DNA of 64,000 nucleotides. It comes from a virus. Of the stretch, positions 26,747 through 43,741 are shown piece after piece (positions within the stretch are counted from its first letter, which is position 1; each line of letters opens with the position of its first letter). The DNA lies in the IMG/VR virus record IMGVR_UViG_3300032265_001314, positions 1 to 64,000 of that record; one strand, 5' to 3'. A program made the translations under genes and the position numbers. The notes under the pieces are model-generated. The model was not told where the DNA came from, did not search any database, and saw only the letters and a list, made by a program, of their open reading frames with translations.

Positions 26747-27631
26747 TCACCCATTCAGTTTGAATTTAACATAATCTATTATAGCACCTGCGATATCTAT
26801 ATTGCAATATTTTTCAAATCCCTCGAAACCAGGTGCGCTATTAGCTTCACACACTTTAAAACCTTCTTGATCAAAAAGCAAGTCTATTCCTGCGATATCT
26901 AATCCTAGGCATTTTGCAGTCTCTCTGCAGAGTAAATCTAACTCATTAGTAATTTCAAATGATTCACCCGTACCGCCTCCTGTTATGTTAGCACGGAAGT
27001 CGCCCGGAGGACCAGTACGTTTCATAACACCTATAGTCTTGCCACCAACTACCCATACACGTAGATCAGTTCCAACTGCGGTATTGATAAACTCCTGCAC
27101 AATCATAGTTTTCTTGACGCCGAGATTATCTATGAGTTCCATAAGGTCCTCAAACAATTCTTTAGTTTGGCAGAGATGTACGCCTTTACCGTAACTGCCC
27201 TGTAATACTTTGACTACACATGGAAATCCTATTTCTTTTGCTACTAGGTCGCTAGAAACAGGAAACTTAACCAACATAGTTTTTGGCGTAGGTATATTGT
27301 TTTGTGCTAATATCTGGTGTGCTAAGAGCTTATCACCTACATTAGTGATAGCTTCGCTATTATTGATAGTAGGTACTGAAAACTTTTCTAGCTGTCGCAT
27401 AACAGCAGATCGAAAATAATTAGTACCAGACCCTACTCTAGTTAGCACCAACTTAGGCATGCTGATACTATCGCCTTTGTATCTAATGCTTTTAGTCCTG
27501 CTGCGGTTGACTATGATATCAAACTCATCAGGATGCATCAATCTTGCATCGATAGAATTGTTAGAGAATGTCTCTAACAACCTACGATTCTCATAGCTAT
27601 CGTTATGCTGGCTTAGTATCCAAACACTCAT
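26747..27631 (-). CDS. RimK-like ATP-grasp ligase
   Basis: 294 residues. ATP-grasp order: pre-ATP-grasp 1-95, FPCVVKVLQGSYGKGVHLC (nucleotide Lys and glycine loop), MIVQEFINTA, DLRVWVVGGKTIGVMKR, then GIDLLFDQEGFKVCEANSAPGFEG with the Mg ligands. This fits RimK-type enzymes that add glutamate or a similar amino acid to a protein or peptide end. Possible targets are host ribosomal protein S6 or a phage protein; target not shown. It overlaps the next upstream region only by 1-2 bases. Confidence 0.9.
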   Translation of the reverse strand: MSVWILSQHNDSYENRRLLETFSNNSIDARLMHPDEFDIIVNRSRTKSIRYKGDSISMPKLVLTRVGSGTNYFRSAVMRQLEKFSVPTINNSEAITNVGDKLLAHQILAQNNIPTPKTMLVKFPVSSDLVAKEIGFPCVVKVLQGSYGKGVHLCQTKELFEDLMELIDNLGVKKTMIVQEFINTAVGTDLRVWVVGGKTIGVMKRTGPPGDFRANITGGGTGESFEITNELDLLCRETAKCLGLDIAGIDLLFDQEGFKVCEANSAPGFEGFEKYCNIDIAGAIIDYVKFKLNG

Positions 27632-29081: not shown

Positions 29082-29653
29082 TAAAACCATAAGAATAACC
29101 CCTGTCCCATTAGAGCCAAAGCTCCTACCATAGCTCCTAATCCTGCCCAAAACATCAGCATTCCACTACTTAAAATACTAGCAGTGATTAATACTATGGC
29201 TATCTGCATTATAGATCCTGCTAGACCAATCCAAGGACTCTGACGTTTAAGATGATCTATTTCTGCATCAATAGCACTAGCTTGTGCTAGTAATTCACGT
29301 TTTCCCTCGTTGGTTTTTGGATCACTTTCGTAACGAGCGATTGCAGCTTCTAGCTCTTCTGCCTTCTTTGTATCCTTGTCTCTGATGGCGGTATCTCTAG
29401 CATATTCGGCTATATTCTGTTTAATACTCTTAGCTTGATAAAAATTGTAAACATCGTTAACATGTATAGTTTGATTCAATATTGTACTAGATATCCTTGA
29501 TCCAATGAAAGCATCTATGCTGTAGATAGCTGCGAATATACTAATTACTAGTGCAGCTCTGCTCTTTAGTTTGCTGGTAAAAGTTTGAGCTTCGGATGTG
29601 ATTTTGTCTGCATCTTTTGAAACCTGTTTAAGTAATGAGTCACCCAAAGCCAT
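29081..29653 (-). CDS. DUF4337 membrane protein
   Basis: 190 residues. A transmembrane segment near 34-52, then VNDVYNFYQAKSIKQNIAE, the DUF4337 hallmark (W/YxxYQAKSIK), a charged helical loop, and two C-terminal membrane segments (about 140-188). Family function unknown. SD AAAGGAG and a late octamer precede the ATG. Confidence 0.85.
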   Translation of the reverse strand: MALGDSLLKQVSKDADKITSEAQTFTSKLKSRAALVISIFAAIYSIDAFIGSRISSTILNQTIHVNDVYNFYQAKSIKQNIAEYARDTAIRDKDTKKAEELEAAIARYESDPKTNEGKRELLAQASAIDAEIDHLKRQSPWIGLAGSIMQIAIVLITASILSSGMLMFWAGLGAMVGALALMGQGLFLWF

Positions 29654-29674
29654 GCTTTTCTCCTTTGTTTAGTG

Positions 29675-29682
29675 TATTTAAG
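29675..29682 (-). promoter_or_regulatory. Late promoter octamer CTTAAATA
   Basis: It lies 21 bases upstream of the DUF4337 ATG with AAAGGAG between. Confidence 0.5.
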
Positions 29683-29721
29683 TGCGTATATTTTAATATA
29701 AAACTAGCAGTTAAATACCTA

Positions 29722-30003
29722 GTGGAAAGCTTTTTTAAACTAGTAGCAGATGTTGGATTTCCTATCGCCGCAGCCTGTGCGATGGGTTACTTCATCTTCT
29801 TAACAATCAAATTCATCTTAGCAGGAGTTATGGGGTCGGTTAAAGGATTAAGCGGTATCATAACCGCCCTAGATAATAGGGTCAAGACTATGAATCACGA
29901 TGTTATACGTATTGATACTCTAATGAGTAATGCTTTAGGTGTTAAGCCAGATGTAGATCGTATAGCTAGAGCAGATGGTAAAAACGATGCAAGGAGAGAC
30001 TAA
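29722..30003 (+). CDS. Membrane protein, paralogue of the 31279 gene
   Basis: 93 residues from GTG 29722. This start gives MESFFKLVADVGFPIAAAC, which aligns with MESNVADLISKYGFPIVAA of the gene at 31279; the longer open frame has no ribosome site. One transmembrane segment, then a helix with LDNRVKTMNHDVIRIDTL. Family unknown. Confidence 0.7.
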   Translation: MESFFKLVADVGFPIAAACAMGYFIFLTIKFILAGVMGSVKGLSGIITALDNRVKTMNHDVIRIDTLMSNALGVKPDVDRIARADGKNDARRD

Positions 30004-30775: not shown

Positions 30776-31279
30776 GTGATCCCAATGGACCCAAAAAAAG
30801 CGCAGAAGCTAGGAGAGGCATGGGGCGGAGTCATCACCGACAGTGTTTTTGGTATAGTTGATGTTGTTAAGAATGCGCCGGCACAACGGGCTGCAAATAA
30901 TCAAAAAATACAAAATAAAAATAAAATTACAGAGATTAATAATCAAATAACACGACAGAATAATCTGTTGCGCGAACAAGCAATGCGTGAAATAGCTAAA
31001 GAAGCCGAAATGGATGCGATAGCTAGAATGAGCCCTAAGCAAAGAGAAGAATATAAACAAGCAAAGTTGGCTTCTGAAAAAGCTAGAGCCAGAGCAGAAA
31101 GAGAAGCACAAGAACGTAAAGAAGAAATGGGGCAATATTTTTTAGCCTTTATATTGATATTTGTAGTAATACCGTTTATGATTTGGATAGGTTTGATTAT
31201 CTATGCTTTAGTAGATCCTATGGCATATTACTCTATGAAGAGCTGGGTGCCTTTACTTAAAACGATAGTGGGAAGATAA
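30776..31279 (+). CDS. Coiled-coil membrane protein
   Basis: 167 residues from GTG 30776 (GGAG 7 bases upstream). A long Lys/Glu/Ala/Gln-rich coiled coil (about 35-118, AKLASEKARARAEREAQERK) is followed by a transmembrane segment (120-145) and a short tail. The start overlaps nothing; the stop overlaps the next ATG (TAATG). Family unknown. Confidence 0.7.
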   Translation: MIPMDPKKAQKLGEAWGGVITDSVFGIVDVVKNAPAQRAANNQKIQNKNKITEINNQITRQNNLLREQAMREIAKEAEMDAIARMSPKQREEYKQAKLASEKARARAEREAQERKEEMGQYFLAFILIFVVIPFMIWIGLIIYALVDPMAYYSMKSWVPLLKTIVGR

Positions 31280-31692
31280 TGGAATCTAATGTAGCCGACT
31301 TAATCTCAAAATATGGTTTTCCAATCGTCGCAGCAGGCGGTATGGGATATATGATATATTATATATGGATATGGGCAACTACTGAAGTTAAACCAGTACT
31401 AAGCGAAGCTAATACTGTTCTTATCGCATTGATTGATCGTATACGTATGTTAGATAACGATCTTATTCGCCTAAATCAGAAACTAAACATCGTGCTGCAA
31501 CTACGTGGTAAAGAGATTGAAAGTGAACGCCACTTAGAAGATGTTAAGACTGCTGCTGCTGCTCAGAAACGCGAAATGGAAGCTGCCGAACAACAGCGCA
31601 AGGCTGCCGAACAATTGGCGCACCAAGCTCCGGATCCAGGCAACGCTAAGATATACATACAACCAACAGCACCTGTAAAGAATGATCAGTAA
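31279..31692 (+). CDS. Membrane protein with Gln/Ala-rich coiled coil
   Basis: 137 residues. MESNVADLISKYGFPIVAA, one transmembrane segment (about 17-35), a helix DNDLIRLNQKL and a C-terminal coiled coil (AAAAQKREMEAAEQQRKAA). Paralogue of the gene at 29722. Translationally coupled on both sides. Confidence 0.7.
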   Translation: MESNVADLISKYGFPIVAAGGMGYMIYYIWIWATTEVKPVLSEANTVLIALIDRIRMLDNDLIRLNQKLNIVLQLRGKEIESERHLEDVKTAAAAQKREMEAAEQQRKAAEQLAHQAPDPGNAKIYIQPTAPVKNDQ

Positions 31693-31816
31693 TTTTGAAA
31701 ATATATACGATATATGGATGTTTGGATATAGGTTACCTATAGACGCTGCTATTTTTCTCGGAACTATGTTTGCTTTGCTCTGCGTAGCAGCTGTCTGCCA
31801 ATCATTTAAGTTATAA
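31682..31816 (+). CDS. Tiny membrane protein
   Basis: 44 residues, MISNFENIYDIWMFGYRLPI then a hydrophobic segment (22-40). It overlaps the end of the preceding gene by 11 bases, mirroring the pair at 29722/30003. Confidence 0.6.
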   Translation: MISNFENIYDIWMFGYRLPIDAAIFLGTMFALLCVAAVCQSFKL

Positions 31817-32374
31817 TTTTAAGAAGTTTTTTACTGCTGCTACTGTGGCATCGCTTTGCAGTATCTCATAATGGTTAGCAGCTATCTCCGCAACATTACC
31901 GCAAGTCCATCCTGTCTGTACTTTAATAGGCAATACTCCGTCGTTGCTTTCATATATAAAAGGATTAAATCCTTTATTAGCTATTAAATGTAGAACAGGT
32001 AAGTGATCATAACGCATTTCGTGTATCTCTTGGACTTGCCTGCTGCTATTCGCTATCTTGCCTATGAGACTTGCTCTGCTCATATAGAGCTGTATAAGAT
32101 TTAGATCCAGACCAGCTAATGGGCTAGCGAGAGTTATAATACCTTTACATAATGTGTCTTGGCTCATATGTAAAGCGATCATACCACCCAGGCTATGTCC
32201 AATAGCAACATATGGTTCACGCATCACACCTATGCTCATAGCTAGGATATCTTCGTAAGCATTAACACGATGATCGTAATCAACGCAATGCCAATCTTTG
32301 ATTTTGGTCTTGTGCTTTAGATAGTTAAAACTGATGCTACTGCTCCAAGCACCGTGGATACCGAGTATCTTCAT
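31811..32374 (-). CDS. Alpha/beta hydrolase, lipase-like
   Basis: 187 residues. HGAWSS oxyanion region, GHSLGG nucleophile elbow, ESNDGVLP with the probable Asp, and AANHYEIL with the probable His: a full triad in order. No signal peptide, so cytoplasmic. It follows the glycosyltransferase after one amber codon and one sense codon, in the same frame. In this context a lipid-ester substrate is plausible. Confidence 0.88.
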   Translation of the reverse strand: MKILGIHGAWSSSISFNYLKHKTKIKDWHCVDYDHRVNAYEDILAMSIGVMREPYVAIGHSLGGMIALHMSQDTLCKGIITLASPLAGLDLNLIQLYMSRASLIGKIANSSRQVQEIHEMRYDHLPVLHLIANKGFNPFIYESNDGVLPIKVQTGWTCGNVAEIAANHYEILQSDATVAAVKNFLKL

Positions 32375-32377
32375 AAC

Positions 32378-33376
32378 CTATTTAATCTCCGTTAAGTTGT
32401 CTAGGAATGTCTTAGTACATATAGCCCAATCATATTTTTTACTGCTTGCTTCAACAATGGCACGATCACATTCCAGAGCATATGCTATAGCTACTTCTAA
32501 ATCATCATCCATATAACCATTGATTCCGTTCTCTACTACATCGACAGGTCCAGTGACTGGATAAGCTGCTATAGGAGTACCACAAGCTATAGATTCTAAC
32601 ATAACCACACCAAATGTATCGCTCTTGCTTGGAAAAACAAACACATCAGAATTAGCATAATATTCTGCTAGTTCTTTACCTTTCTTATATCCTGCATAGT
32701 TTACATAAGGGTACTTTTGCTTCAATTCATCTAGGTAAGGACCATCCCCGACCAGTATCTTAGTTCCCTCTATCTTTACGCTACAGAACTCGTCTAATCC
32801 TTTTTCTTTGCTAGCACGACTAACACAAAGTATTATAGGTCTTTTTACTTCTAACTTTTCTCTTAACTTACTAGTAAATAGATCTCCGTCAACTCCTCTA
32901 TTCCAAACTTCTAACCTTTGGAAGTCTCGATTGCTAAGTTCTGTTTTCATAGTGTTTGTAGTTACTAATACTTTTGTTGAAAACTTATGGAACCATCGGA
33001 CTAACCAGTAGCCCCAATCAACTGGCAACTTAAAATAGGTGTTTAGATATTCCGGAAACTTAGTATGATAGCTGGTGTTGTGTGGTATGCTACGTTTGTC
33101 TACTTTACAATACCAACGTGCAGCTAATCCTAATGTACCTTCGGTGGCTATATGTATAGCATCAGGTTTAAAGTTTTCTATCATAGGACCAACACGCCAT
33201 ATGTCTAAACTAAGCCTAACTTCAGGATAGCCTGGAGCACCTATGGTTTTAAATTGACTAGGTTCGATCACCTGTACAATGTGTCCCCAAGACTCTAACT
33301 GTTTAACTGTGGCTCTTAGTGTAGTGACCACACCATTTATATTAGCCCAAGTATCAGTTACTAGCGTTATCCTCAT
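32378..33376 (-). CDS. GT4 glycosyltransferase, Agt-like
   Basis: 332 residues. MRITLVTDTWANINGVVTTL is the GT4 N-terminus; VGDGPYLDELKQKYP and VMLESIACGTPIAAYPVTGP give the nucleotide-sugar site and EX7E-like element. Resembles the mannosyl/glycolipid synthases MgtA and SqdX and the Agt enzymes paired with PlcP. It likely adds a sugar to diacylglycerol or another lipid, by context. Start overlaps the phosphoesterase end by 23 bases. Stop is TAG. Confidence 0.85.
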   Translation of the reverse strand: MRITLVTDTWANINGVVTTLRATVKQLESWGHIVQVIEPSQFKTIGAPGYPEVRLSLDIWRVGPMIENFKPDAIHIATEGTLGLAARWYCKVDKRSIPHNTSYHTKFPEYLNTYFKLPVDWGYWLVRWFHKFSTKVLVTTNTMKTELSNRDFQRLEVWNRGVDGDLFTSKLREKLEVKRPIILCVSRASKEKGLDEFCSVKIEGTKILVGDGPYLDELKQKYPYVNYAGYKKGKELAEYYANSDVFVFPSKSDTFGVVMLESIACGTPIAAYPVTGPVDVVENGINGYMDDDLEVAIAYALECDRAIVEASSKKYDWAICTKTFLDNLTEIK

Positions 33377-34094
33377 TTCGGATTATCTCCCAAGTACCAT
33401 CATAGTTTTCTACTAGTGCCGTACAACTCTCGCACCAGTCACCACAGTTCATATATTCAATATCATTTATCTTACGTATGTTAGCGTGATGTATGTGCCC
33501 ACATACTATACCTACGCACTCTTCTGCCTTAGCATATCCACTCAGTTTATCTTCGTAGCTTCCCATAAAATTGACAGCAGATTTAACTTTGTATTTGGCC
33601 CATTGGCTCAATGACCAGTAAGGCAGTTTGAATAAACGTCTGATCTTATTAACAATAACATTAAGCCTCATACTAAAATCATAGGCTATAGTTCCAAAAT
33701 GGGCAAGCCAAGCTGCATTTTTCATTACCACATCAAATTGATCTCCGTGTATGATTAATATAGGTCTATTCTTTGTATCAATATAAATGGTCTTTTCACG
33801 TATCTCTACATTACCAAAGAACTGATCGTCAAAGTTGCGTAATACTTCGTCGTGATTACCGCTTATATAAACAACATCAGTTCCTTTACGTGCCTTACGT
33901 AATATCTTTTGTACCACATCGTTGTGTGCTTGAGGCCAATATATACTTTTACTCATAGCCCAGCAGTCTATAATATCACCTACTAGGAATAGCTTTTCAC
34001 TTTCTGTGTCTCTCAAAAAATTTAATAGCTTGTCTGCTTGGCACATCTTTGTCCCGAGATGCACATCTGATATGAAAATGCTTTTATATTTCAC
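33354..34094 (-). CDS. Metallophosphoesterase of PlcP/LpxH-like family
   Basis: 246 residues. Metal motifs SDVHLG, GDIIDCW, SGNHDE, HGDQFD and GHIHHA are all present. WPQAHNDVVQKILRKARKG and YWSLSQWAKYKVKSAVNF match the alphaproteobacterial family that includes PlcP, a manganese phospholipase C that strips phospholipid headgroups under phosphate limitation; UDP-diacylglucosamine pyrophosphatase is the alternative. Pairing with a GT4 gene favours PlcP. Confidence 0.85.
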   Translation of the reverse strand: MKYKSIFISDVHLGTKMCQADKLLNFLRDTESEKLFLVGDIIDCWAMSKSIYWPQAHNDVVQKILRKARKGTDVVYISGNHDEVLRNFDDQFFGNVEIREKTIYIDTKNRPILIIHGDQFDVVMKNAAWLAHFGTIAYDFSMRLNVIVNKIRRLFKLPYWSLSQWAKYKVKSAVNFMGSYEDKLSGYAKAEECVGIVCGHIHHANIRKINDIEYMNCGDWCESCTALVENYDGTWEIIRNEDNASN

Positions 34095-34100
34095 TTTACC

Positions 34101-36152
34101 TCACTTCGTATTTGTACGGTATACTCCATCCCACCCTTCGCCTGGTGGATTCTTAGCATATTCATCACAGCGGTCTGCCCACATATCGTAATAGCCGTCC
34201 ATCTTACCATCAAACTTTCCTTTGAGACTTAGTGCTATGCTTTTAGCAATAATAAATCTCTGAGCATTATATGCGTTCATCATAGTATTGTGTTCATTCT
34301 TAGCATTTTTATATCCAATAGGAACTTTTGAAAGCTCACCTAATACTGTGAATATATTCACACCTTCTTTTTTACCCTTGACTGCTAGACAATCTAGAGG
34401 TAGAGTAAAGTATGCATCTTTCACGTATTCGTTTGTCTTAGGACCTATTACCATTGCGACGTGATATGGCTTGCTCTGTCCTTCAAGTCTGCTCGCCAAG
34501 TTGACGCCGTCCCCGAGACAAGTATAATCGAAACGTTGGCTACTACCCATGTTACCCACAACAACAGTATCAGTGTTAATGCCCAATCCCATACCAAATG
34601 GTGGAACACCTTCAAGCGCAACTTCTCTGTTAAATTCATCTAGGCTTCCTAACATTTCCAATGCTGTCTTTACAGCATCCTTTGCGTGTTTTTCATTGCT
34701 AAGTGGAGCGTTCCAAAAAGCCATCTGTGCATCGCCGATGTACTTGTCCAGTGTTCCGTGATTCTCCAGTATCTTCTTAGTCATCGCTGTCATGTAGCGA
34801 TTCATTATCTTGGTTAATCCCTGAACATCGCTTCCGTAATGCTCACTAATAGTAGTAAACCCACGAACATCAGTAAACATGATTGATAGCTCAACTGAGT
34901 CTCCTCCCAATGCGAGCAGTTCGGGATTCTTCTGTAACCTAGCTACTAAGTCTGGGCTTAGGTAAGTTCCAAACTGTTTCTTTATCTGTTGCTTCTGAAG
35001 GAACTCGGATACGAATTTAACTCCGTAGGCATGCAGAGCGACCAAGATGATTCCAGATACAAAAATGGTTGCGTCGCATAACCATAGAGAGCTAGTAAAG
35101 AGATACTGACTAAGTAGCACACTCCCGCCGACCAATACAATAACTGAGGCAAGTCCAACATACATCCACCTTGTTAAAACTAGAAGTAAGATACCAGCAA
35201 CAACCAATGCGATAGTTTCTGCGCCTTCTGCCCATCCGGGTCTCTGGATATTTACCCCATTTATCATAGTTCCTAGCACCGCTGCCTGTAGATCTTGTGG
35301 CCATATAGCACCCTTTGCTGTTGGTACAGGATTAGCTATACCAGCTGCGGTAGTGCCTACTATAACAACAGCACCTCCTAGATCATCTGGTAAGTTTATA
35401 GCACTGTAGCTCTTGTTAGTCTGGCTCCAGTCTATCCATATGCGTCCTAGATTGTCTGTAGTTATTGCACCAAACTTAGGTATGCGCATCTTATCAACAC
35501 CGTCTTCGTTCAGTTTAATCTGCACGGTGCTATCACCTGCCATAACACGGAGAGTTTCTAGAGATAGGTTAGGATATAGCTTACCACCGCTAGTGATCAA
35601 TAAGGGTATCCTGCGATTAACACCATCTATCTCAGGTAGTGTATTGATAGTTCCTACACCGACTGCTGCTGATTCTAGCTCAGGGATGTTAGCTATGATA
35701 CCCGGATAGGGTATGATAGTATCCATATATTTTGCGTTAATGACCGCGGCACCCGGATTCTTGGGAGTGTTTTTTCCCTTGATGCTAGGCACGTTGCTGA
35801 GCAAGATGGGGTAGTTTTTCATAGTATTAGCCAATATACTATCACCGCCCATACGATCGGCTTCAGGCATCATTATGTTCCAAACGACCAAACCTGCTTT
35901 ATGTTTATAGAGATCTTCTATTATACCAGCATATACATCGCGTTTAAACGGCCACTGTCCGTACTTGTCTAGTGTAGCTTCATCTATGTTAACAGTTATT
36001 ATGTTGTTAGCTGTAGGAGCTTTATTAGTGATGAGAGTATCAAAATAGCGTAGCTTTACGCTTTCTACAAAGGTAGGGTTAGATAGTTTTATAGCCACTA
36101 CTAATAATAAAGTTATTAGAGCGGTCCAGGGGCTCAATAATATTCTTTTCAT
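34101..36152 (-). CDS. CHASE2-class III adenylate cyclase
   Basis: 683 residues: an N-terminal membrane anchor, an extracytoplasmic CHASE2 sensor (about 30-305), three membrane segments (about 312-378) and a class III cyclase (about 415-600). Metal Asp428 and Asp474, Lys470, Thr544, Asn551 and Arg555 are present, the class IIIb pattern, which favours cAMP. A free catalytic cyclase in a phage is notable. Late octamer puts +1 exactly on the ATG. A FecR-type gene lies two genes upstream, as CHASE2 cyclases often sit beside FecR. Confidence 0.94.
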   Translation of the reverse strand: MKRILLSPWTALITLLLVVAIKLSNPTFVESVKLRYFDTLITNKAPTANNIITVNIDEATLDKYGQWPFKRDVYAGIIEDLYKHKAGLVVWNIMMPEADRMGGDSILANTMKNYPILLSNVPSIKGKNTPKNPGAAVINAKYMDTIIPYPGIIANIPELESAAVGVGTINTLPEIDGVNRRIPLLITSGGKLYPNLSLETLRVMAGDSTVQIKLNEDGVDKMRIPKFGAITTDNLGRIWIDWSQTNKSYSAINLPDDLGGAVVIVGTTAAGIANPVPTAKGAIWPQDLQAAVLGTMINGVNIQRPGWAEGAETIALVVAGILLLVLTRWMYVGLASVIVLVGGSVLLSQYLFTSSLWLCDATIFVSGIILVALHAYGVKFVSEFLQKQQIKKQFGTYLSPDLVARLQKNPELLALGGDSVELSIMFTDVRGFTTISEHYGSDVQGLTKIMNRYMTAMTKKILENHGTLDKYIGDAQMAFWNAPLSNEKHAKDAVKTALEMLGSLDEFNREVALEGVPPFGMGLGINTDTVVVGNMGSSQRFDYTCLGDGVNLASRLEGQSKPYHVAMVIGPKTNEYVKDAYFTLPLDCLAVKGKKEGVNIFTVLGELSKVPIGYKNAKNEHNTMMNAYNAQRFIIAKSIALSLKGKFDGKMDGYYDMWADRCDEYAKNPPGEGWDGVYRTNTK

Positions 36153-36157
36153 ACCAC

Positions 36158-36165
36158 TATTTAGT
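36158..36165 (-). promoter_or_regulatory. Late promoter octamer ACTAAATA, leaderless
   Basis: Predicted +1 is the A of the cyclase ATG at 36152. Confidence 0.55.
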
Positions 36166-36697
36166 GTTTGGTATAACTGTAACCACTACAAGGTGGTGTT
36201 AGGCATTGGATGCTTAATGATGCTGCATCAGGCACGGTAGCACTATCCTGTATTACATTTGCAGTTATGTTATTGCCACTTAGGCTGAGATGGAAAGATT
36301 TGTTAGCAGCTCCAGTCTGTGTGATATTAGCAGTGTTATTACTAGTAGGTATATTGGGATCTAAGTTTATTGCTGCATTATAACTGCCAGTACCTGTTTG
36401 TGTTATGTTTAGTGTATTATTGCTGTTGCTATTTGTAACAGGATATGTAAGCGGAGCATTTGGTCCGGTAGGTAAATTGGGTGGGACACCAATAAATGCT
36501 GTATTATTTCCGGTACCCTCTTGTGTTATAGTGACAGCATTATTATCGCCTTTGTTAAGCACGATAGCAGAACTATTAGTAGTATTGATTTGATCTATAG
36601 CGATGCTATTATTGTTACCGATCTGATCGATATAGACAGTATTTTGTGCATACGCATTTGATATCATTGTCAGTAGTATCACTATTGTATATCTCAT
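36161..36697 (-). CDS. Secreted curlin-repeat protein 2
   Basis: 178 residues. Signal peptide to about 17 (SNAYA-Q), then repeats of the N-x-hydrophobic-x-hydrophobic-x-Q-x-G type (NTVYIDQIGNNNS, NAVTITQEGTGNN, NTLNITQTGTGSYN, NTANITQTGAANKS). These are curlin/CsgA-like amyloid repeats. Expected to be secreted through CsgG and to polymerise on the cell surface. Confidence 0.85.
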   Translation of the reverse strand: MRYTIVILLTMISNAYAQNTVYIDQIGNNNSIAIDQINTTNSSAIVLNKGDNNAVTITQEGTGNNTAFIGVPPNLPTGPNAPLTYPVTNSNSNNTLNITQTGTGSYNAAINLDPNIPTSNNTANITQTGAANKSFHLSLSGNNITANVIQDSATVPDAASLSIQCLTPPCSGYSYTKH

Positions 36698-36700
36698 TTT

Positions 36701-37819
36701 TTACTTACTTTGATTTATGGTTATCTTGGTTCCATTTTGGTTATTAACATTCTGCACTATCGTCACTCCATCTTGTACGAGAGTGAGGGTGCTGGGAGAA
36801 TCCTTATCTAGATTCACAGAAGCAACGTGTCCAGGAGCGATCCTATATAGAGTCAGATTAGTATCTACGAGCATATACTTTAATCCTGCTGCTTTATTAG
36901 GCGGGTACTTAGGCAACATCGTATTGAATGAACTAAGTTGATCGTCTAATAACTGGCTGTTTAATAAATCTAGCATATTTATTAAGAAGCTAGAGTTGTC
37001 CAAATAAGCCATATCTAGCATACTCTGTTGTGTAACGAATGCATCGTCTAGCATACCTGCTGTGTCTAAGAATTTTTGATCTAGGAAATTGATATCCAGT
37101 GCATTTTTATTATTATCTGCTCCTTTTGCTACTTGCTTTACCTGTTTAGGAGGAGTAACAATTAATAGGTTATTGATCTGATCGGGATTGAGATCTAATA
37201 TAACAGGTTTACTGGGTTTGCTTTCTCTGCTAGCCACTGTAGTAGATTGAAAAGCTTTGTTGAGTATTATCGTGCCCATACCCGTGTTTACACTAATCTC
37301 TCCGACCTTACAGTCTTTTTCTATATCTTTAAACCCAGTAGGGCAGCTTGGAAGAAGTATGGCTAAGGTCCTGCCTAGCTCATCTACCGTGAGAGTAAAG
37401 TCTGTCCCACGAACACCGATAGTCGCGCTAGGTGTATCTATCTTTATGCTTTCAGGAGTATGTTTGGCTATCTGACCGCTAGCAAAACGGGCAGTTCCCA
37501 TCGCTACTTTCATACCAAGCTTACCAGCATCGCTTGTGGTATCATCGTAGACAAAACTATCTATTAAGAGTCTGCTCTGTTCGGTTATCTCTACTAGGCT
37601 ATCATCTTTAAAAGTTATCCTAGTTTTGCTTTTAGCTGTAACGATAGTATCGTCCATTTCAACTTCTGTATTGATATTAGTCGGGGTGCTCTTCTTGTCT
37701 CTCTGTAGTTCAGTGAGACCTGTTTGCTCTGTGATTTTACCTACAGATGTTGCTAAAGACTCAGTTTCCGCTATGAACAGAAATAGTATTGTTAGAGCCG
37801 TTGCTCTTAATTTGTACAT
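36701..37819 (-). CDS. Periplasmic FecR-domain protein
   Basis: 372 residues. Signal peptide to about 24. FecR domain (about 25-165): VEMDDTIVTAKSKTRITFKDD, then IDTPSATIGVRGTDFTL, the FecR hallmark. The rest is Asp/Asn/Leu-rich (ILDLNPDQINNLLIV). In bacteria such proteins pair with CHASE2 cyclases. It overlaps the end of the upstream curlin gene by 59 bases, unusually long; the signal peptide supports this start. Confidence 0.86.
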   Translation of the reverse strand: MYKLRATALTILFLFIAETESLATSVGKITEQTGLTELQRDKKSTPTNINTEVEMDDTIVTAKSKTRITFKDDSLVEITEQSRLLIDSFVYDDTTSDAGKLGMKVAMGTARFASGQIAKHTPESIKIDTPSATIGVRGTDFTLTVDELGRTLAILLPSCPTGFKDIEKDCKVGEISVNTGMGTIILNKAFQSTTVASRESKPSKPVILDLNPDQINNLLIVTPPKQVKQVAKGADNNKNALDINFLDQKFLDTAGMLDDAFVTQQSMLDMAYLDNSSFLINMLDLLNSQLLDDQLSSFNTMLPKYPPNKAAGLKYMLVDTNLTLYRIAPGHVASVNLDKDSPSTLTLVQDGVTIVQNVNNQNGTKITINQSK

Positions 37820-38447
37820 TGCTGTCTACCGATCCCGATTGGACTACACCTATCGTGTTAGTACTACCTGTAACACTTACACTTGCTACAAATCCGTTGG
37901 CACCAGCTGGACCATCTTGGCTTATATTAACGGCGTTGTACCCACCCACTATGCTGATATTGCTAACCGCACCTAAGAGATTATTGCTAGTATTATTGAT
38001 AAGGGTGCTGTTGTGATCACCCTGTATAGTTGTGCTGCTTTTGCTTTTTGCACCAGTAGTAGTATTAATAGAGTTGTTTCCACCTTCTGCATTGGCGACT
38101 ATGATAGCATCAGTACAGGAAGATCCAGCACCGCCGCCTGCACCTGTTCCGCAGTTTACAGTTACAGTATTAACACTACCGTTTACGTTTGAAGTTAGGC
38201 TAGCGCCATCGCCTTGTATAGTAAAGTCACCTACGTTTCCACTGCCTATCTGTGAGATATTAATGATTTGGTTGTTACCGTGGAACACATTGTTTTTGAG
38301 TTCTGTACCAGCAGCATTGTTTGAGCCCGATTGCGTAATCGTGATCGTGCTGTTGCTTCCATTTTGATCCATATAGACGCTGTTCACGGTTTGAGCGAAA
38401 GCGTTTGTAGATAAGAAAATTAATGCTGCTGCTACTAGGTATTTCAT
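37761..38447 (-). CDS. Secreted curlin-repeat protein 1
   Basis: 228 residues. Signal peptide to about 18 (NAFA-Q). Repeats include NSVYMDQNGSNS, STITITQSGSNNA, QIINISQIGSGN, NAVNISQDGPAG and NTIGVVQSGSVD. Gly/Asn/Ser-rich with a Cys pair in the middle (NCGTG, SSCTD). A CsgA/CsgB-like amyloid subunit. Overlaps the CsgG stop (ATGA). Confidence 0.87.
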   Translation of the reverse strand: MKYLVAAALIFLSTNAFAQTVNSVYMDQNGSNSTITITQSGSNNAAGTELKNNVFHGNNQIINISQIGSGNVGDFTIQGDGASLTSNVNGSVNTVTVNCGTGAGGGAGSSCTDAIIVANAEGGNNSINTTTGAKSKSSTTIQGDHNSTLINNTSNNLLGAVSNISIVGGYNAVNISQDGPAGANGFVASVSVTGSTNTIGVVQSGSVDSNVQIKSNGSNNTISVHSGN

Positions 38448-39304
38448 TTTTTAGCTCCGTCGGGCTTAGTACTCTTAGGGACGGCAAATGCCCATAATTT
38501 TTTCGCCGCGCCCTGTTTTATCAGATCTGCTACAGCTTCTTCAGTAGCAAGACGAACAGCATAGGTACTCTGTTCGTTCATGTTGTAACCAGACTCAAGC
38601 TGTATGCTCATTGTGTTCTGATCAATAAACTTCATCACGTTTCCGCTCACGCCTGCACTAAGTATGGTTTTAGTAGCACCTGAAGTAACTAATACTTCAC
38701 CAGTGGATACGCTTATTAATCGCATAACAACAGTAACCACGTCTGTCCTATACTGTGCAGAAGCACCGATACCAAGCATAGCAGCTCCAGCGCCACCGGA
38801 AGCTATATTACTATCGTATCCAATTATGCCACCTTCGATCATAACACCCGCGACTAGTAGGGGGCTAAGTGGTTTAGCTTCTTTACCTTCGTAAGTTTCA
38901 CGTTGGCTACGTATAAGCTGTCTTTCTTTAACTAGGTTGTCTAATCCTACCCTTTCAATAACTTGGAACCATTTTCCCTTGCCAGCGTCCTGTAGTGCTT
39001 TGATAAGGAATACTTCAGCACCTTGTGTTACTGCGCTGCTCAATACGGCTACAGTGTCGTTTGGTTTCCTCTGCCCTGTCTTGTCACTAAAATTATAAAC
39101 TGCGATAGTTATAGGATCTCCTGCTAATGCAGGAATATCTGCTAGCGGACTTCGTCGAAGCTTTGTTATAGGTTGGGCAGTTGGTGAAGGGACTCCACTA
39201 TCGTTATCATTTATAGTATCAGCGATCCTGTCTAAGGTCTTGTTGCTGACACACCCTGCTAATAGCATCGCTACCAACGGTATCAAGAGGAAAGATTTTT
39301 TCAT
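38444..39304 (-). CDS. csgG: Curli secretion channel CsgG
   Basis: 286 residues. Lipoprotein signal MKKSFLLIPLVAMLLAGC. AVYNFSDKTGQRKPND, then LIKALQDAGKGKWFQVIERVGLDNLVKERQLIRSQRE, is the CsgG signature; the membrane hairpins follow (DVVTVVMRLISVSTGEVLVT). It forms an outer-membrane nonamer that exports curlins. Coupled with CsgF by one base (TAATG). Confidence 0.95.
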   Translation of the reverse strand: MKKSFLLIPLVAMLLAGCVSNKTLDRIADTINDNDSGVPSPTAQPITKLRRSPLADIPALAGDPITIAVYNFSDKTGQRKPNDTVAVLSSAVTQGAEVFLIKALQDAGKGKWFQVIERVGLDNLVKERQLIRSQRETYEGKEAKPLSPLLVAGVMIEGGIIGYDSNIASGGAGAAMLGIGASAQYRTDVVTVVMRLISVSTGEVLVTSGATKTILSAGVSGNVMKFIDQNTMSIQLESGYNMNEQSTYAVRLATEEAVADLIKQGAAKKLWAFAVPKSTKPDGAKK

Positions 39305-39759
39305 TAGAATTTAAATCCTCCCATCGGAACTGATAGATTTGTTTGATTACCGCTTTGATCTGTTATGGTAAGATTAATAGTATTAGTAGACAGATCCTGC
39401 ACCCAACTAATAGTGCTACCTTGGAAATCCATAGATCCTGATGTACTAGTTCCGCTAAACATAGCATTGCTTAACTGCAAACTCAGCTGTGCATATATGC
39501 GAGATTCTAAGTTGTTGAGAAACTTCTGTAGGTTGGTATTTTGCAATGCGGCTTTAACAGCGTCTGCATCGGCTTTGCGCTGCGCATCACGGGCCTGCTG
39601 TCGAGTATACTCTTCGTTCTCAATCGTGAGCACTTGTGATCCCCAACCTATGCCAGAAAATGTTGGATTCTTAAACTGGAATACCATTTCACTAGAAAAC
39701 GCAGGTGCAGGAGAAATAAACACAAGGCAGGCTATTATATATGAATAGTATTTGACCAT
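39304..39759 (-). CDS. csgF: Curli assembly factor CsgF
   Basis: 151 residues. Signal peptide to about 23, then VFQFKNPTFSGIGWGSQVL, the CsgF segment that enters the CsgG channel, a helical region with many Ala/Gln, and a beta end (SVPMGGFKF). In curli systems CsgF caps CsgG and guides nucleation. SD GAGGAG. First gene of the nine-gene block. Confidence 0.93.
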   Translation of the reverse strand: MVKYYSYIIACLVFISPAPAFSSEMVFQFKNPTFSGIGWGSQVLTIENEEYTRQQARDAQRKADADAVKAALQNTNLQKFLNNLESRIYAQLSLQLSNAMFSGTSTSGSMDFQGSTISWVQDLSTNTINLTITDQSGNQTNLSVPMGGFKF

Positions 39760-39792
39760 AACAACTCCTCTGTTATTTAAACATTATACACG

Positions 39793-39800
39793 TATTTAAT
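39793..39800 (-). promoter_or_regulatory. Late promoter octamer ATTAAATA for the curli block
   Basis: It lies 33 bases upstream of the CsgF ATG with GAGGAG between. A TATAAT also occurs close by, so an early promoter cannot be excluded. Confidence 0.5.
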
Positions 39801-39815
39801 CAGATAATATAATGA

Positions 39816-41117
39816 TTAGGATGCTTTACAGACGAATTCCTCAAACTTTCCGTTGGGAGGGAGTGGCCATTCCTTTTCATAACGTGTAACCGTATAGGTA
39901 AATGCATCACCTAGTGCCTTACGAGCGATAGCTATTAGAGCTTCTCTCTGTGTCTCCGTTATAGGATCGTCTGTTACTATCTTATATTCGATCATTTCTC
40001 TGCTGTGCTGTATGACCTGATACTTGCGTATGATAAAGTCTAGCTCGTCAAAGTTATACATACCAACCATGGGCCAATAGCGCCTACCATCCGGCTGTAT
40101 GATTAGATTGCGTTCTCTACCTACTACACGCTTTAGTGTTAGCAATCCTCTACCACAACTGCATTCCGGTCCACGTTCAGCATAGTCGCCTATAGAATAG
40201 CGTATCATTGGACTAGCATAATTGTGTAGATCAGTAACTACTACCCTGCCAATAGACCCCGCTGTGACTGGAGCACCTCGATCGTCTACAACTTCTACTA
40301 CGAGATTTTGATCCATAGTATGATAGAGATCGCTGTCTGGGCATTTAGCTGCGATAGAACCCATCTCTTGGCTGCTATATGAATCTTCGATATCTAATCC
40401 AAATAGCTGCTTAGTCCTAACTCTGAGGCTATCGCTAACAGTCTCGCCTATAGTTTTGATATGTTTAAGTTTGAACTGGGGAATATCCTTCTCCCATATA
40501 TCTAGCAGGGCCTTTAGATTGTTGGGATATACGATGAGGATGTTAGGATTAAAGCCGCGCAATAGCCTATCTTGTTCTTTGATATCAGTCCATATATTGA
40601 TAGACAGCATAGGTCCAGTTTCGTGCATTAGCGCATAAGGAGCACCCCAGTTAGATATTTCTTTATTTTCATGGTGTCCTGCTCGTATAGAAGCTAACCT
40701 TGACTTAAAGTCTCTCTTGTGCCAAAGTATCTCTTGATAGTTGAATGCGTAGAAGAACTGTGCTACTGTATCTGTAGCTTTGATTACTACAGGTTCGCCT
40801 GTTGACCCTGAGGTCTTGACTACGCCCGGCTTGCCGTGATCCTTTGGTACTTCTCTAGCAAAGAAACTTTCACCTGCCGATTGTATATCTCTACGAGAAA
40901 GCAAAGGTAGGGCAGTGATATTATCTACCGATATACCTTTAGGCTGTAATCCGGACACTCTTATGCGTTCTAGGAACCATTCACTGTTCTTCACGTGATG
41001 ATTTACTAATGACTTGAGCTTTACGGTCTGTATATCCCTAAGAGCCTTGGGAGTATACCACTGAAGCTGTGATAGAGTAGCCGTTAATGTCTTGAGTGCT
41101 TCTATCTTACTTGCCAT
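39816..41117 (-). CDS. Adenylate-forming enzyme, PaaK/CapK-like
   Basis: 433 residues. VVKTSGSTGEPVVIK is the AMP-binding P-loop; DSYSSQEMGSIAAKC the core ATP motif; RYSIGDYAE and GRERNLIIQPDGRRYWP match the phenylacetate-CoA ligase/CapK family. The end GKFEEFVCK keeps the terminal Lys. Likely activates a carboxylic acid as an adenylate; substrate unknown. Confidence 0.88.
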   Translation of the reverse strand: MASKIEALKTLTATLSQLQWYTPKALRDIQTVKLKSLVNHHVKNSEWFLERIRVSGLQPKGISVDNITALPLLSRRDIQSAGESFFAREVPKDHGKPGVVKTSGSTGEPVVIKATDTVAQFFYAFNYQEILWHKRDFKSRLASIRAGHHENKEISNWGAPYALMHETGPMLSINIWTDIKEQDRLLRGFNPNILIVYPNNLKALLDIWEKDIPQFKLKHIKTIGETVSDSLRVRTKQLFGLDIEDSYSSQEMGSIAAKCPDSDLYHTMDQNLVVEVVDDRGAPVTAGSIGRVVVTDLHNYASPMIRYSIGDYAERGPECSCGRGLLTLKRVVGRERNLIIQPDGRRYWPMVGMYNFDELDFIIRKYQVIQHSREMIEYKIVTDDPITETQREALIAIARKALGDAFTYTVTRYEKEWPLPPNGKFEEFVCKAS

Positions 41118-41877
41118 CTTTTTTCCAAACTATGATAGGGCAAGTGTCTGCTAGATCATATCCTGTAGTTTCTACAAAATCTGCAATATCAAATACACAC
41201 ACCCACTGCTGCCTGTCTGGCACAAAAGTCACTGTGTCTATGTTTTCATATAGATCTATCGTATTGATATCATCTATATTCCATCCCGTGCTCATGGCAA
41301 CATATTTTCGATCCAGTGCTATCTCATTAAATAGATCTCTAACTTTTGCTAGCTCAACTGGTCCGTTATTTTTTGCTGCTATATAATAGACCATCTTCCA
41401 TTTGAATCCGTTCCATCCTAACCCAGTGCGGGCTTGTAGGTCGTATTTTAATTCTTCTATCGTAACTGGTATCCTTGGGCGTTCAAACACACGCTGTATC
41501 AATCGACCATTTGGTTTTAACCAAAGCTTACACTTGTTTGCAAAGTTAACCATATTGTCTAATTTACCTAACAGTCCCAAAGCACCGTCACTTATGATAT
41601 TTCCAAACTGTCCTGGAGACCAAGTCATTGTTTTCCAATCAGCTAGAATGGCTTTTTTGGATTCGGTATCTCCGGGCCAAACAGTATCTATCATGTGTTG
41701 ATTAACATCTACTGCTAGCAGGTTATCAAATAGCGGATGGAATTCCGGTGTTACACCTAGCAATAGAGTCTCACCCGTAACACAGAGATCTCGCATCTGC
41801 TGTGCTACTTGAGTAGTAGGACGCAATGGTGGTGCTAGTCTATTCCAGCTAGCACTATGCTTGGGTAATGGATTCAT
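41107..41877 (-). CDS. SAM-dependent methyltransferase-like protein
   Basis: 256 residues. TLLLGVTPEFHPLFDNLLAVDVNQHMIDTV has the glycine-poor motif I and acidic end of beta 2; ILADWKTMTWSPGQFGNIISDGAL is the later part of the Rossmann fold. Class I methyltransferase, possibly degenerate in motif I. Overlaps both neighbours. Confidence 0.75.
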   Translation of the reverse strand: MNPLPKHSASWNRLAPPLRPTTQVAQQMRDLCVTGETLLLGVTPEFHPLFDNLLAVDVNQHMIDTVWPGDTESKKAILADWKTMTWSPGQFGNIISDGALGLLGKLDNMVNFANKCKLWLKPNGRLIQRVFERPRIPVTIEELKYDLQARTGLGWNGFKWKMVYYIAAKNNGPVELAKVRDLFNEIALDRKYVAMSTGWNIDDINTIDLYENIDTVTFVPDRQQWVCVFDIADFVETTGYDLADTCPIIVWKKDGK

Positions 41878-42466
41878 TTTGTTTCCCTAATAGATAGTTA
41901 AGAACCATTCCATATAGTGGAACGATGATCGCCGATGCAAATATCAGCTTGCCAAGCACACCGTTAGTGGCTACTTCAAACCAATGCTCTGCCATAAATG
42001 CGTTTGCACTTCCAATAAATGCTGCTGCGAAGAACAAGTATGTTGATAGCGCCATCATAACATTGCCACTAATTAATGGAGCGATCCACCACTGTGTATA
42101 CTTTTCGCGTAGAAACTGGAATACATATACATCTAGTAACTGTGCTACAATGTAGCTAAATCCACTAGCAAGGGCTACTCGTACAGCGACCGATTCCGGA
42201 GCACCACTAGCCATTATAACTAGTATGCTAGCGAGGATACCTGGGATAAAACTTACTGCCACTACTAGCCTAGCCGTGTTCTTGCCTATCAATCTTACCG
42301 TTAGATCAGTTAGCAAGAATACCAATGGGTAGACTAACGTACTGTAGGCAATCGGACTATCAAACACCGTAAATTTGAAGTTAACTAAAAAGTTGCTAAA
42401 TGCAATCACTGCTGTATGTAATAGCATTAATCGTAATAAAATATTCTTATCTATGTTGTTAAACAT
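41855..42466 (-). CDS. YhhQ/VUT-type transporter
   Basis: 203 residues with about six membrane segments. YPLVFLLTDLTVRLIGKNTAR and FSYIVAQLLDVYVFQFLRE match the DUF165/VUT family, whose best known member YhhQ imports queuosine precursors. A phage copy could feed a tRNA or DNA 7-deazaguanine modification; no synthesis enzymes are visible here. Stop is TAG, followed in frame by two more TAG codons. Confidence 0.88.
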   Translation of the reverse strand: MFNNIDKNILLRLMLLHTAVIAFSNFLVNFKFTVFDSPIAYSTLVYPLVFLLTDLTVRLIGKNTARLVVAVSFIPGILASILVIMASGAPESVAVRVALASGFSYIVAQLLDVYVFQFLREKYTQWWIAPLISGNVMMALSTYLFFAAAFIGSANAFMAEHWFEVATNGVLGKLIFASAIIVPLYGMVLNYLLGKQNESITQA

Positions 42467-43338
42467 TAAATGGTTCCTTTCGCATTATCGTCTCGCCATT
42501 CCATTATTTCTTTGTGCTCGCTATCTATTAGCTCGCTATAGCTCATTGGTTTAGCTTTGCTATCACGCACGAATGCTAATAGAAATCTCTTGCCGAAACC
42601 GTAATGTTCTGGATATTCTTTCTTAAGCGTATTGTATCCTCGTATATCTTCCTTGTAACCCAAACGATTCATTATAATCTTGAGTGCGCCCATGCTGGGT
42701 AAGATCCCTAGTATGTTGCTGACTGCTTCGTGATTGTCATGATGCATCATCTTACCATTATCATTGTAGCTAACAAATGGGTAACCGTATTCAACACCGA
42801 GCATTAGCTTATGTAAGCTCTCATATGATTCTTCTCCCTTTAGTTTTCCTATCTCATTAATCAAAGGTAATAAAAAAGGGATAGGTGGATGTATGCTTTC
42901 GATCACTATAGTATTAGCACAAGTTGCCATAGCAGTTAGGACAGGAAGGAAATTGGTGATAGCGTGTAGCACTCCACCAATGATTATATAATCGTATTCT
43001 TCCAAATTGTTCTCAAGGAAGGTTTCACAGCTATCTGTTACGATATCCCAGTTATCTAAGTACCCATAATATTTGGTGAGATTTTGATCAGCGATAGCTG
43101 CCAATGGTTTGCTTATTTCCACACCTACATATTTCTTAGCTCCGTTGCTTAAAGCATATGCTCCAAATGCTCCTAGACAGCAACCTAAATCCAGCACTGA
43201 TTTATCTTTTAAAAACTGTGGGGGTATCCAAGCTTCATATCTTGCTAGCTGCGTTTCTGCAGTGAATTCCCGTTCGATAGCTTGATCAGTGCGTGGATCT
43301 CTAGTGATAAAGTCTGTCTGTGTTTCAAATATGTTCAA
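42466..43338 (-). CDS. Class I SAM-dependent methyltransferase
   Basis: 290 residues. VLDLGCCLGAFGAYALSNGAKKYVGVEI is a clear motif I and II; NNLEEYDYIIIGGVLHAI is motif IV region. Start is TTG 43338; an in-frame TAA lies two codons earlier and no other start is near. It overlaps the glycosylase stop by 14 bases. Substrate unknown. Confidence 0.88.
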   Translation of the reverse strand: MNIFETQTDFITRDPRTDQAIEREFTAETQLARYEAWIPPQFLKDKSVLDLGCCLGAFGAYALSNGAKKYVGVEISKPLAAIADQNLTKYYGYLDNWDIVTDSCETFLENNLEEYDYIIIGGVLHAITNFLPVLTAMATCANTIVIESIHPPIPFLLPLINEIGKLKGEESYESLHKLMLGVEYGYPFVSYNDNGKMMHHDNHEAVSNILGILPSMGALKIIMNRLGYKEDIRGYNTLKKEYPEHYGFGKRFLLAFVRDSKAKPMSYSELIDSEHKEIMEWRDDNAKGTI

Positions 43339-43741
43339 TGTTTATCTCTTCTTTCAAATAGCGTATGAGTTCCTTATCTGTGGGCTGTACTGAATAGTTT
43401 TGTTTAAAGAAGATCTCATAGCTATCGCTGCCATACTTACCGATACCGTAGAGGTCAGCAGCATTATTTCTATCCCAAGTTAAGAAATCTTGTGTCATCC
43501 TACGCAAACGTTTTTCGCGCACATTAACCATACCCAATGGTCTGATTACATCCTTAACAACATCTGGATCTGCGAGAAAATAGAAATGCATCTCCGTGGG
43601 CCAACGGGAAAGGAATTCCGGTAGCACAGTTTTTACAGGCTTCCGGCCCGTTTGGTTGAGCATAATTACACCAACCATATGCTGCCAAGCCCCATTGATC
43701 TGTTGCTGTACCATAAGATCATCGCGTAAAGGTTTAATCAA
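43325..43741 (-). CDS. HhH-GPD DNA glycosylase, MBD4-like
   Basis: 138 residues. GVIMLNQTGRKPVKTVLPEFLSRWP and GIGKYGSDSYEIF are hallmarks of the MBD4/Nth group, with the catalytic Asp in the GxDSY segment. No iron-sulfur Cys. MBD4 removes T or U opposite G at damaged methylated sites. In this context the enzyme may protect a phage genome carrying modified cytosine, which is inference. Confidence 0.85.
   Translation of the reverse strand: MIKPLRDDLMVQQQINGAWQHMVGVIMLNQTGRKPVKTVLPEFLSRWPTEMHFYFLADPDVVKDVIRPLGMVNVREKRLRRMTQDFLTWDRNNAADLYGIGKYGSDSYEIFFKQNYSVQPTDKELIRYLKEEINIEHI

Follow-up and report, generated by a model that had tools for sequence, protein, structure and literature searches.

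Curli modules of marine phages have been treated in three papers (PMC7029224, PMC9004378, PMC9599517), which take up aggregation and superinfection as well as FecR, the cyclase and the missing CsgE. In one of them, curlin repeats, FecR, an adenylate cyclase and a 'histidine kinase' were described in podo- and myophages without CsgE, together with an Alphaproteobacterial origin and movement from one phage family to another, defence against superinfection being among the ideas put forward (PMC9599517). A lysis role was proposed for the module of the methylophage Melnitz (PMC9004378), and the surroundings of another phage curli operon were termed hypervariable (PMC7029224). In marine bacteria, plcP and agt have been tied to the replacement of phospholipids by monoglycosyl diacylglycerol (MGDG) and glucuronic acid diacylglycerol (GADG) (PMC4796936), and the residues mutated in the SAR11 glycosyltransferase GTcp have been named (PMC8231724). 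Here, both systems are compared with a block of nine genes found in the window, i.e. the 64,000 nucleotides (positions 1 to 64,000) analysed of the 91,271-base virus record IMGVR_UViG_3300032265_001314. The curli half of this block is known from marine phages; the neighbouring lipid half appears to be new.

It is considered moderately probable that the block is a phage-borne envelope-remodelling cassette composed of two joined units, curli and lipid. From the parts, their order, the catalytic residues of the glycosyltransferase and the recurrence in other phages, all observed in sequence, we infer enzyme activity, expression and its timing, amyloid formation, the cyclase signal and a benefit, as follows. 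In the first unit, a CsgG-CsgF outer-membrane pore would export two curlin-repeat proteins, and the FecR-domain protein and the CHASE2 cyclase would probably pass a periplasmic signal into cyclic AMP. In the second, PlcP would strip the phosphate head group from host phosphatidylglycerol or phosphatidylethanolamine, an Agt-like family 4 glycosyltransferase (GT4) would add hexose or glucuronic acid to diacylglycerol, with acyl chains or lysolipids as possible substrates for trimming by the small serine hydrolase. The infected host would thereby acquire a glycolipid-rich, phosphate-poor membrane and surface amyloid, and such a changed envelope would alter phage receptors and free phosphorus. Among the presumed benefits, superinfection block would rank first and phosphate salvage second. 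A superinfection effect of the cassette is plausible because lipid changes affect phage binding in Ruegeria, where an aminolipid-lacking mutant bound less phage (PMC9938194), and lipid renovation has been proposed to influence it in Pseudomonas (PMC9804370). Only tentatively is a broader version put forward, in which the cassette is mobile among large phages, PlcP-Agt swaps phospholipids for glycolipids during amyloid export under a CHASE2-cyclase sensor, and the whole constitutes the first virus-encoded membrane lipid-remodelling pathway of its kind, with copies hidden as lpxH. If the enzymes work as predicted, phages alter host membrane lipid classes during infection, which would bear on the phosphorus source of phages in phosphorus-poor water and on the purpose of the puzzling phage curli modules.

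The curli genes and their phage counterparts

The nine open reading frames (ORFs), all on the minus strand between 31811 and 39759, are separated by -1, -4, -59, 3, 8, 6, -23 and 3 bases along the block, and its named domains pass the Pfam curated cut-offs, Abhydrolase_6 being the weakest (Table 1). The first-pass annotation had described nine packed genes with overlaps or gaps under 10 bases, which coordinates, domains and spacing confirm. It had also stated that no phage system of this makeup was described, and this was wrong for six of the nine genes: csgF-csgG-curlin-FecR-curlin-CHASE2 cyclase occurs in the same order in the cultured phages HTVC008M and Melnitz, and the papers cited above already treat the module. 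Its proposal that such a phage would remake the host surface stands in so far as phage origin, a curlin export system and a lipid change are supported by sequence; as a new system, it falls short for the six genes already known.

Table 1. Features of the nine-gene block and of two module-linked genes (window coordinates)
Feature	Coordinates	Strand	Evidence
CsgF-like pore partner	39304..39759	-	PF10614 60.2 bits; phrog_35372
CsgG-like outer-membrane secretion pore	38444..39304	-	PF03783 159.6 bits; E. coli CsgG structures E 7e-44
Curlin-repeat protein 1, probable exported amyloid subunit	37761..38447	-	PF07012 25.7 bits; motif count
FecR-domain protein	36701..37819	-	PF04773 43.9 bits; phrog_37870 E 2.5e-88
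Curlin-repeat protein 2	36161..36697	-	PF07012 41.1 bits, 1.7e-10; motif count
CHASE2 class III cyclase	34101..36152	-	PF05226 124.4, PF00211 (Guanylate_cyc) 65.6 bits; phrog_35576 767.6 bits
PlcP-like metallophosphoesterase (phospholipase C of lipid remodelling)	33354..34094	-	Metallophos; 49-58% identity to bacterial plcP-type genes
Agt/GTcp-like diacylglycerol glycosyltransferase (GT4)	32378..33376	-	GT4 domains; GTcp residues 14/15
Small alpha/beta serine hydrolase, possible lipase	31811..32374	-	Abhydrolase_6 28.3 bits vs cut-off 26.3
Small membrane protein, phrog_18771, module-linked, divergent	29635..30003	+	HTVC008M match; phrog_18771
Second small membrane protein, phrog_18771	31279..31692	+	HTVC008M match; weak holin match

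At the gene level, the parts of a type VIII (curli) secretion system are present, namely a CsgG pore, CsgF and two curlin-repeat substrates, which supports the prediction that the block encodes an export system for curlin-like proteins. By eye, the CsgG-like protein has the lipobox LLAGC and the N-terminus of the FecR-domain protein resembles a signal peptide. The two curlin-repeat proteins contain 3 and 4 QxG motifs, against means of 0.18 and 0.06 in shuffles of the same proteins, of which 1/2000 and 0/2000, respectively, reached the observed count; the NCBIfam CsgA/CsgB models match them weakly, below cut-off. The AlphaFold2 model of the first shows regular beta-strand repeats (mean predicted local distance difference test score, pLDDT, 83.5) and gave no match in the PDB at E <= 0.001. 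The cyclase carries the motifs FTDVRG, DKYIGD and VNLASRL, which may hold the metal aspartates and the adenine-type lysine, and its cyclase domain also matches PADLOC PycC models. CsgE, noted as missing from the block in the first-pass annotation, was indeed not found with PF10627, a model that detects E. coli CsgE, in any of nine records (the 91-kb window record and eight others, with open record ends). This absence is filed as a phage variant of the type VIII system because it is usual in the phage module (PMC9599517).

The likeness to the known phage system (pelagiphages, methylophage Melnitz; HTVC008M, MZ577097) comprises the six genes in order, the failure to find CsgE and relatives of two small membrane proteins upstream of csgF; in the HTVC008M annotation, the FecR-type gene and the second curlin are named hypothetical. 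Unlike the window block, HTVC008M and Melnitz gave no match to PlcP, GT4 or the lipase, and a search of the three module papers for lipid enzymes yielded no PlcP-like partner, so that the addition of the lipid genes is a real observation. The rest of the window record is mostly unlike HTVC008M, since, apart from the module and the two small membrane proteins, ORFs above ~100 amino acids (aa) match it only at two ribonucleotide reductase (RNR) genes and one exonuclease. Therefore, transfer of the module is likelier than common descent.

The phage origin of the block was addressed through a sister record (G001, 115,969 bases) that is collinear with the window record from ~14 kb onwards. The matching pieces, at 73-89% nucleotide identity, together cover 51,836 of the 91,271 bases, with ~56.5-64.5 kb of the window record lacking a long match. 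A single unbroken match at 84% (31817-43558) takes in the block and its upstream neighbours, and all nine block proteins have counterparts at 84-97% identity. The sister record also matches terminase large subunit, tail sheath, tail tube and a DnaB-like helicase, while the window record, which may be a fragment, gave no match to Gp23 capsid or phrog_2 terminase. A chimera with host DNA, raised as a possibility in the first-pass annotation, is strongly argued against because the block is intact in a collinear sister with phage structural genes.

The lipid genes

At 80 bacterial loci, the top-ranking of 589, the phosphoesterase has plcP-type relatives of 49-58% identity, including those of Pelagibacteraceae, Bradyrhizobium and Rhizobium. 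Against the NCBIfam LpxH models, it scored 53.1 bits (cut-off 134) and 40.8 bits (cut-off 190.35), a range in which three bacterial plcP-type genes also fall. Residues D10, H12, D40, N80, H81, H116, H200 and H202, presumably the metal-binding residues of the calcineurin-like fold, are invariant among 25 sequences. By sequence, the phosphoesterase is closer to plcP-type genes than to LpxH. A relative occurs in a cultured phage, Pelagibacter phage Mosig EXVC030M (MT647606; 48% identity over 98% of the query), where it is annotated, unlike in the reading given here, as a UDP-2,3-diacylglucosamine hydrolase; this phage is absent from the records matched by CsgG or GT4. In Mosig (L009, MT647606, 93031-94866), this gene and one for a putative phosphate ABC transporter are arranged divergently. 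The host of Mosig, Pelagibacter HTCC1062, reportedly has no plcP of its own but does carry an Agt homologue (PMC4796936, PMC8231724). These data suggest that some viral 'lpxH' annotations may be lipid-remodelling genes, Mosig being one case; a further candidate is an lpxH in a viral transcript table from Lake Baikal (PMC9611531).

The GT4 has 14 of the 15 GTcp residues tested by mutation, T162 being N, and all 15 are as published in a Pelagibacteraceae glycosyltransferase (L114). Of the 80 bacterial loci, 58 have a relative of the window GT4 downstream of plcP, at 38-47% identity except for a 52% match that spans 58 residues where a contig ends. Among 44 viral plcP loci, a GT4 relative was found <=500 bases downstream in 34, was absent from that range in 8, and 2 end too early. 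Phosphoesterase and GT4 are very probably a PlcP-Agt unit, because of the bacterial plcP-GT4 neighbourhood, the low LpxH scores and the conserved GTcp residues; the identities of the enzymes are thus well supported, their activity and purpose being predicted. In comparison with the PlcP-Agt of marine and soil bacteria (PMC4796936, PMC8231724), the pair, its order and the conserved glycosyltransferase residues are the same. The differences are that here the pair is phage-encoded, with viral gaps of -20 to 226 bases, and that it is joined to a curli module, none being seen near the 80 bacterial plcP genes. In those loci, within <=4 kb on each side, GT4 was the sole other block gene matched at E <= 1e-4, and therefore the union of curli and lipid genes looks phage-specific. 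No report of a phage PlcP-Agt pathway was found in the literature covered, outside which lay most subscription papers and all bioRxiv preprints.

In the hydrolase, the motifs GHSLGG and NDGVLP are invariant and NHYE is conserved among 4 sequences; its low-confidence model (mean pLDDT 63.4) resembles an alpha/beta hydrolase, with weak lipase/esterase matches at a root-mean-square deviation of 5-12 A. Relatives adjoin module genes in two loci (L203, L204), and L317 has a weaker one (27%) after the cyclase. In G069, which has no CsgG match, plcP-GT4 occurs with a lipase relative ~2 kb off. The putative lipase is thus a recurrent partner too.

Distribution, linkage and competing readings

The first-pass annotation had proposed a search of viral records for the same gene order and had named absence from related phages as a refuting outcome. 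Large parts of the block were found to recur, the six-gene order in cultured phages among them, and such an absence was not borne out. All collection scans used exact peptide patterns, so that counts are lower bounds: CsgG was matched in 7 of 50,697 phage records (one a 1.5-kb fragment) and in 57 viral contigs in a narrow scan. Twelve records carry both csgG and plcP, several of them near copies, making about eight groups, and 10 of the 12 have PlcP within or adjoining the curli module. The plcP-GT4 pair lies inside the module in G080, G095, G096, G025, G030 and G063 and beside it in the window record, its sister G001 and G020, and G062 shows plcP alone. In G080, G095 and G096, the order is csgF-csgG-curlin-FecR-curlin-plcP-GT4-cyclase, partly with other genes between. 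Gp23 capsid and phrog_2 terminase were searched in chosen subsets of 31 and 21 records. The capsid was matched in 7 of the 31, and plcP accompanies it in G003, G005, G013 and G015, with GT4 also in G005 and G013; G025 (288,815 bases) unites capsid, curli, plcP, GT4 and cyclase in one record. T4-like phages with no curli gene in view have the plcP-GT4 pair as well. In L013:1479-5588 and L205:236-3694, again without curli, it directly follows genes that by eye resemble T4-type clamp, clamp loader and RegA.

The history of the pair was followed in quick trees with Shimodaira-Hasegawa-like approximate likelihood ratio (SH-aLRT) support only, built without duplicates or rows shorter than 80% of the query; the second PlcP tree was thinned further by removing L010, L051 and every other bacterial row, and L313-L315 are in no tree. 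The curli-linked PlcPs are not one clade: starred branches force at least 3 label changes, which could also be losses, and the approximately unbiased (AU) test, run after a first tree had been inspected, gave p 0.0067. L012 was counted as curli-linked, its 4.8 kb showing cyclase and small membrane genes only. Such a split would fit repeated joining, or movement and replacement. In the GT4 tree, which held at most 45 bacterial rows, a single starred branch (95) has all 45 on the same side, while in the PlcP tree some viral rows stand beside Pelagibacteraceae, so that host-to-phage transfer may have happened once or several times.

Several observations weigh against a joint curli-lipid cassette. 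Infected Melnitz cells were not seen clumping by the authors (PMC9004378), and neither Melnitz nor HTVC008M yielded the lipid genes. In the csgG-based set, where 8 of the 57 csgG loci were omitted from the PlcP search as short contigs, PlcP is present in 9 of 50 records and lacking in 41, many of which are fragments. In G017 and G044, PlcP is ~19.5 kb from csgG, with a broken PlcP frame in G017. Curli genes are not in view at most viral plcP-GT4 pairs, and therefore the lipid unit does not need the curli unit. The PlcP tree calls for more separate placements than the GT4 tree does. Finally, in an RNR-chosen sample of 34 records (of 80 RNR contigs, those of ~20 kb or more), PlcP occurred in 5, CsgG in 6 and both in 3; the Fisher one-sided p of 0.029 is nominal only and becomes ~0.10 if G095 and G096, which look like one phage, are counted once. 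The nearest RNR relatives (G065, G067) align to the window record around RNR only and are uninformative for presence or absence. Gene position is better evidence than the co-occurrence statistic.

The main rival, which we regard as unlikely, holds that the lipid unit serves phosphate salvage only, supplying phospholipid phosphorus for phage DNA synthesis, with the curli neighbourhood incidental. The head group freed by PlcP needs a further phosphatase, which counts against salvage, as does the presence of plcP-GT4 within the curli module of distant phages. On its side are the putative phosphate transporter gene adjoining the PlcP-like gene of Mosig, the curli-free pairs behind the clamp-, clamp loader- and RegA-like genes in L013 and L205, and the fact that PlcP-Agt is a phosphorus-starvation pathway of marine bacteria (PMC4796936). 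Salvage and surface change may both be true.

Somewhat less probable still is a cargo hot spot, in which curli and lipid genes hitch-hike side by side without joint function. The content of the gap between FecR and cyclase differs among phages (RimK-like, HATPase-like and large secreted ORFs), in line with the hypervariable surroundings mentioned above (PMC7029224). Against this, PlcP lies in or beside the module in 10 of the 12 records with both genes, the curli-linked PlcPs are not one clade, and many of the extra ORFs look envelope-related.

An improbable reading takes CsgG-CsgF as a lysis-timing pore, as proposed for Melnitz (PMC9004378), with the lipid genes weakening the membrane at lysis. 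A linked small membrane protein (31279-31692) does match holin weakly, but the block encodes two curlin-repeat substrates, and PlcP-Agt would preserve bilayer lipid by re-glycosylating diacylglycerol, as deduced from PMC8231724. The least credible reading, that the phosphoesterase is LpxH acting on lipid A, was rejected: Mosig and S-SRM01 relatives are so annotated and LpxH provides the only solved-structure matches (best E 2.2e-5), but its model scores are under half of the cut-offs, as in bacterial plcP-type genes, and the neighbouring glycosyltransferase retains diacylglycerol-transferase residues.

Neighbouring genes and minor features

Relatives of one or both small membrane proteins of Table 1 occur in 42 of 59 csgG loci. 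The protein at 29635-30003 is 51% identical to HTVC008M stretch 6897-7178, upstream of csgF, and that at 31279-31692 is 49% identical to stretch 7208-7459, just upstream of csgF; the weak holin match of the latter is to phrog_4898 (E 2.7e-4). By these similarities, the two phrog_18771 proteins, which are paralogous, are assigned to the curli module. Possibly they correspond to the 'histidine kinase' of PMC9599517, although, at 122 and 137 residues and with no Pfam match, they look unlike kinases.

The upstream border of the block is unclear, as a same-strand AMP-ligase-like gene (39816-41117) stops 56 bases before csgF. It is one of four same-strand genes directly upstream (39816-43338: AMP-ligase-like, two methyltransferase-like and a Vut_1-family transporter), which the sister record keeps at 74-84% and which may share the transcript of the block. 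Promoter and terminator scans gave counts no higher than shuffles (50 vs mean 45.2; 10 vs mean 8.7).

Many other phages have a large ORF between FecR and cyclase, with examples of 630-1445 aa in L057, L064, L065, L066, L068, L074, L077 and L089. These have signal-peptide-like starts and occupy the slot of the second curlin of the window, and several of the large ORFs end in an aromatic residue like outer-membrane barrels, a reading made by eye. The large ORFs of 28 loci fall into one similarity cluster together with curlin-like proteins, and the 1445-aa ORF had no Pfam match. These large ORFs also point to surface change. A RimK-like ATP-grasp gene is found near the block at 26747-27631, another in the L313 module (L313:4939-5823) and a relative, by similarity cluster, inside the L109 module (L109:16373-17254).

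The record also carries a transfer-messenger RNA at 939-1335 and a tRNA with a CTA anticodon at 24179-24250 (tRNA-Pyl per ARAGORN). Amber recoding, considered on account of this tRNA, is unsupported, TAG being the stop in 8 of 61 ORFs of ~150 aa or more.

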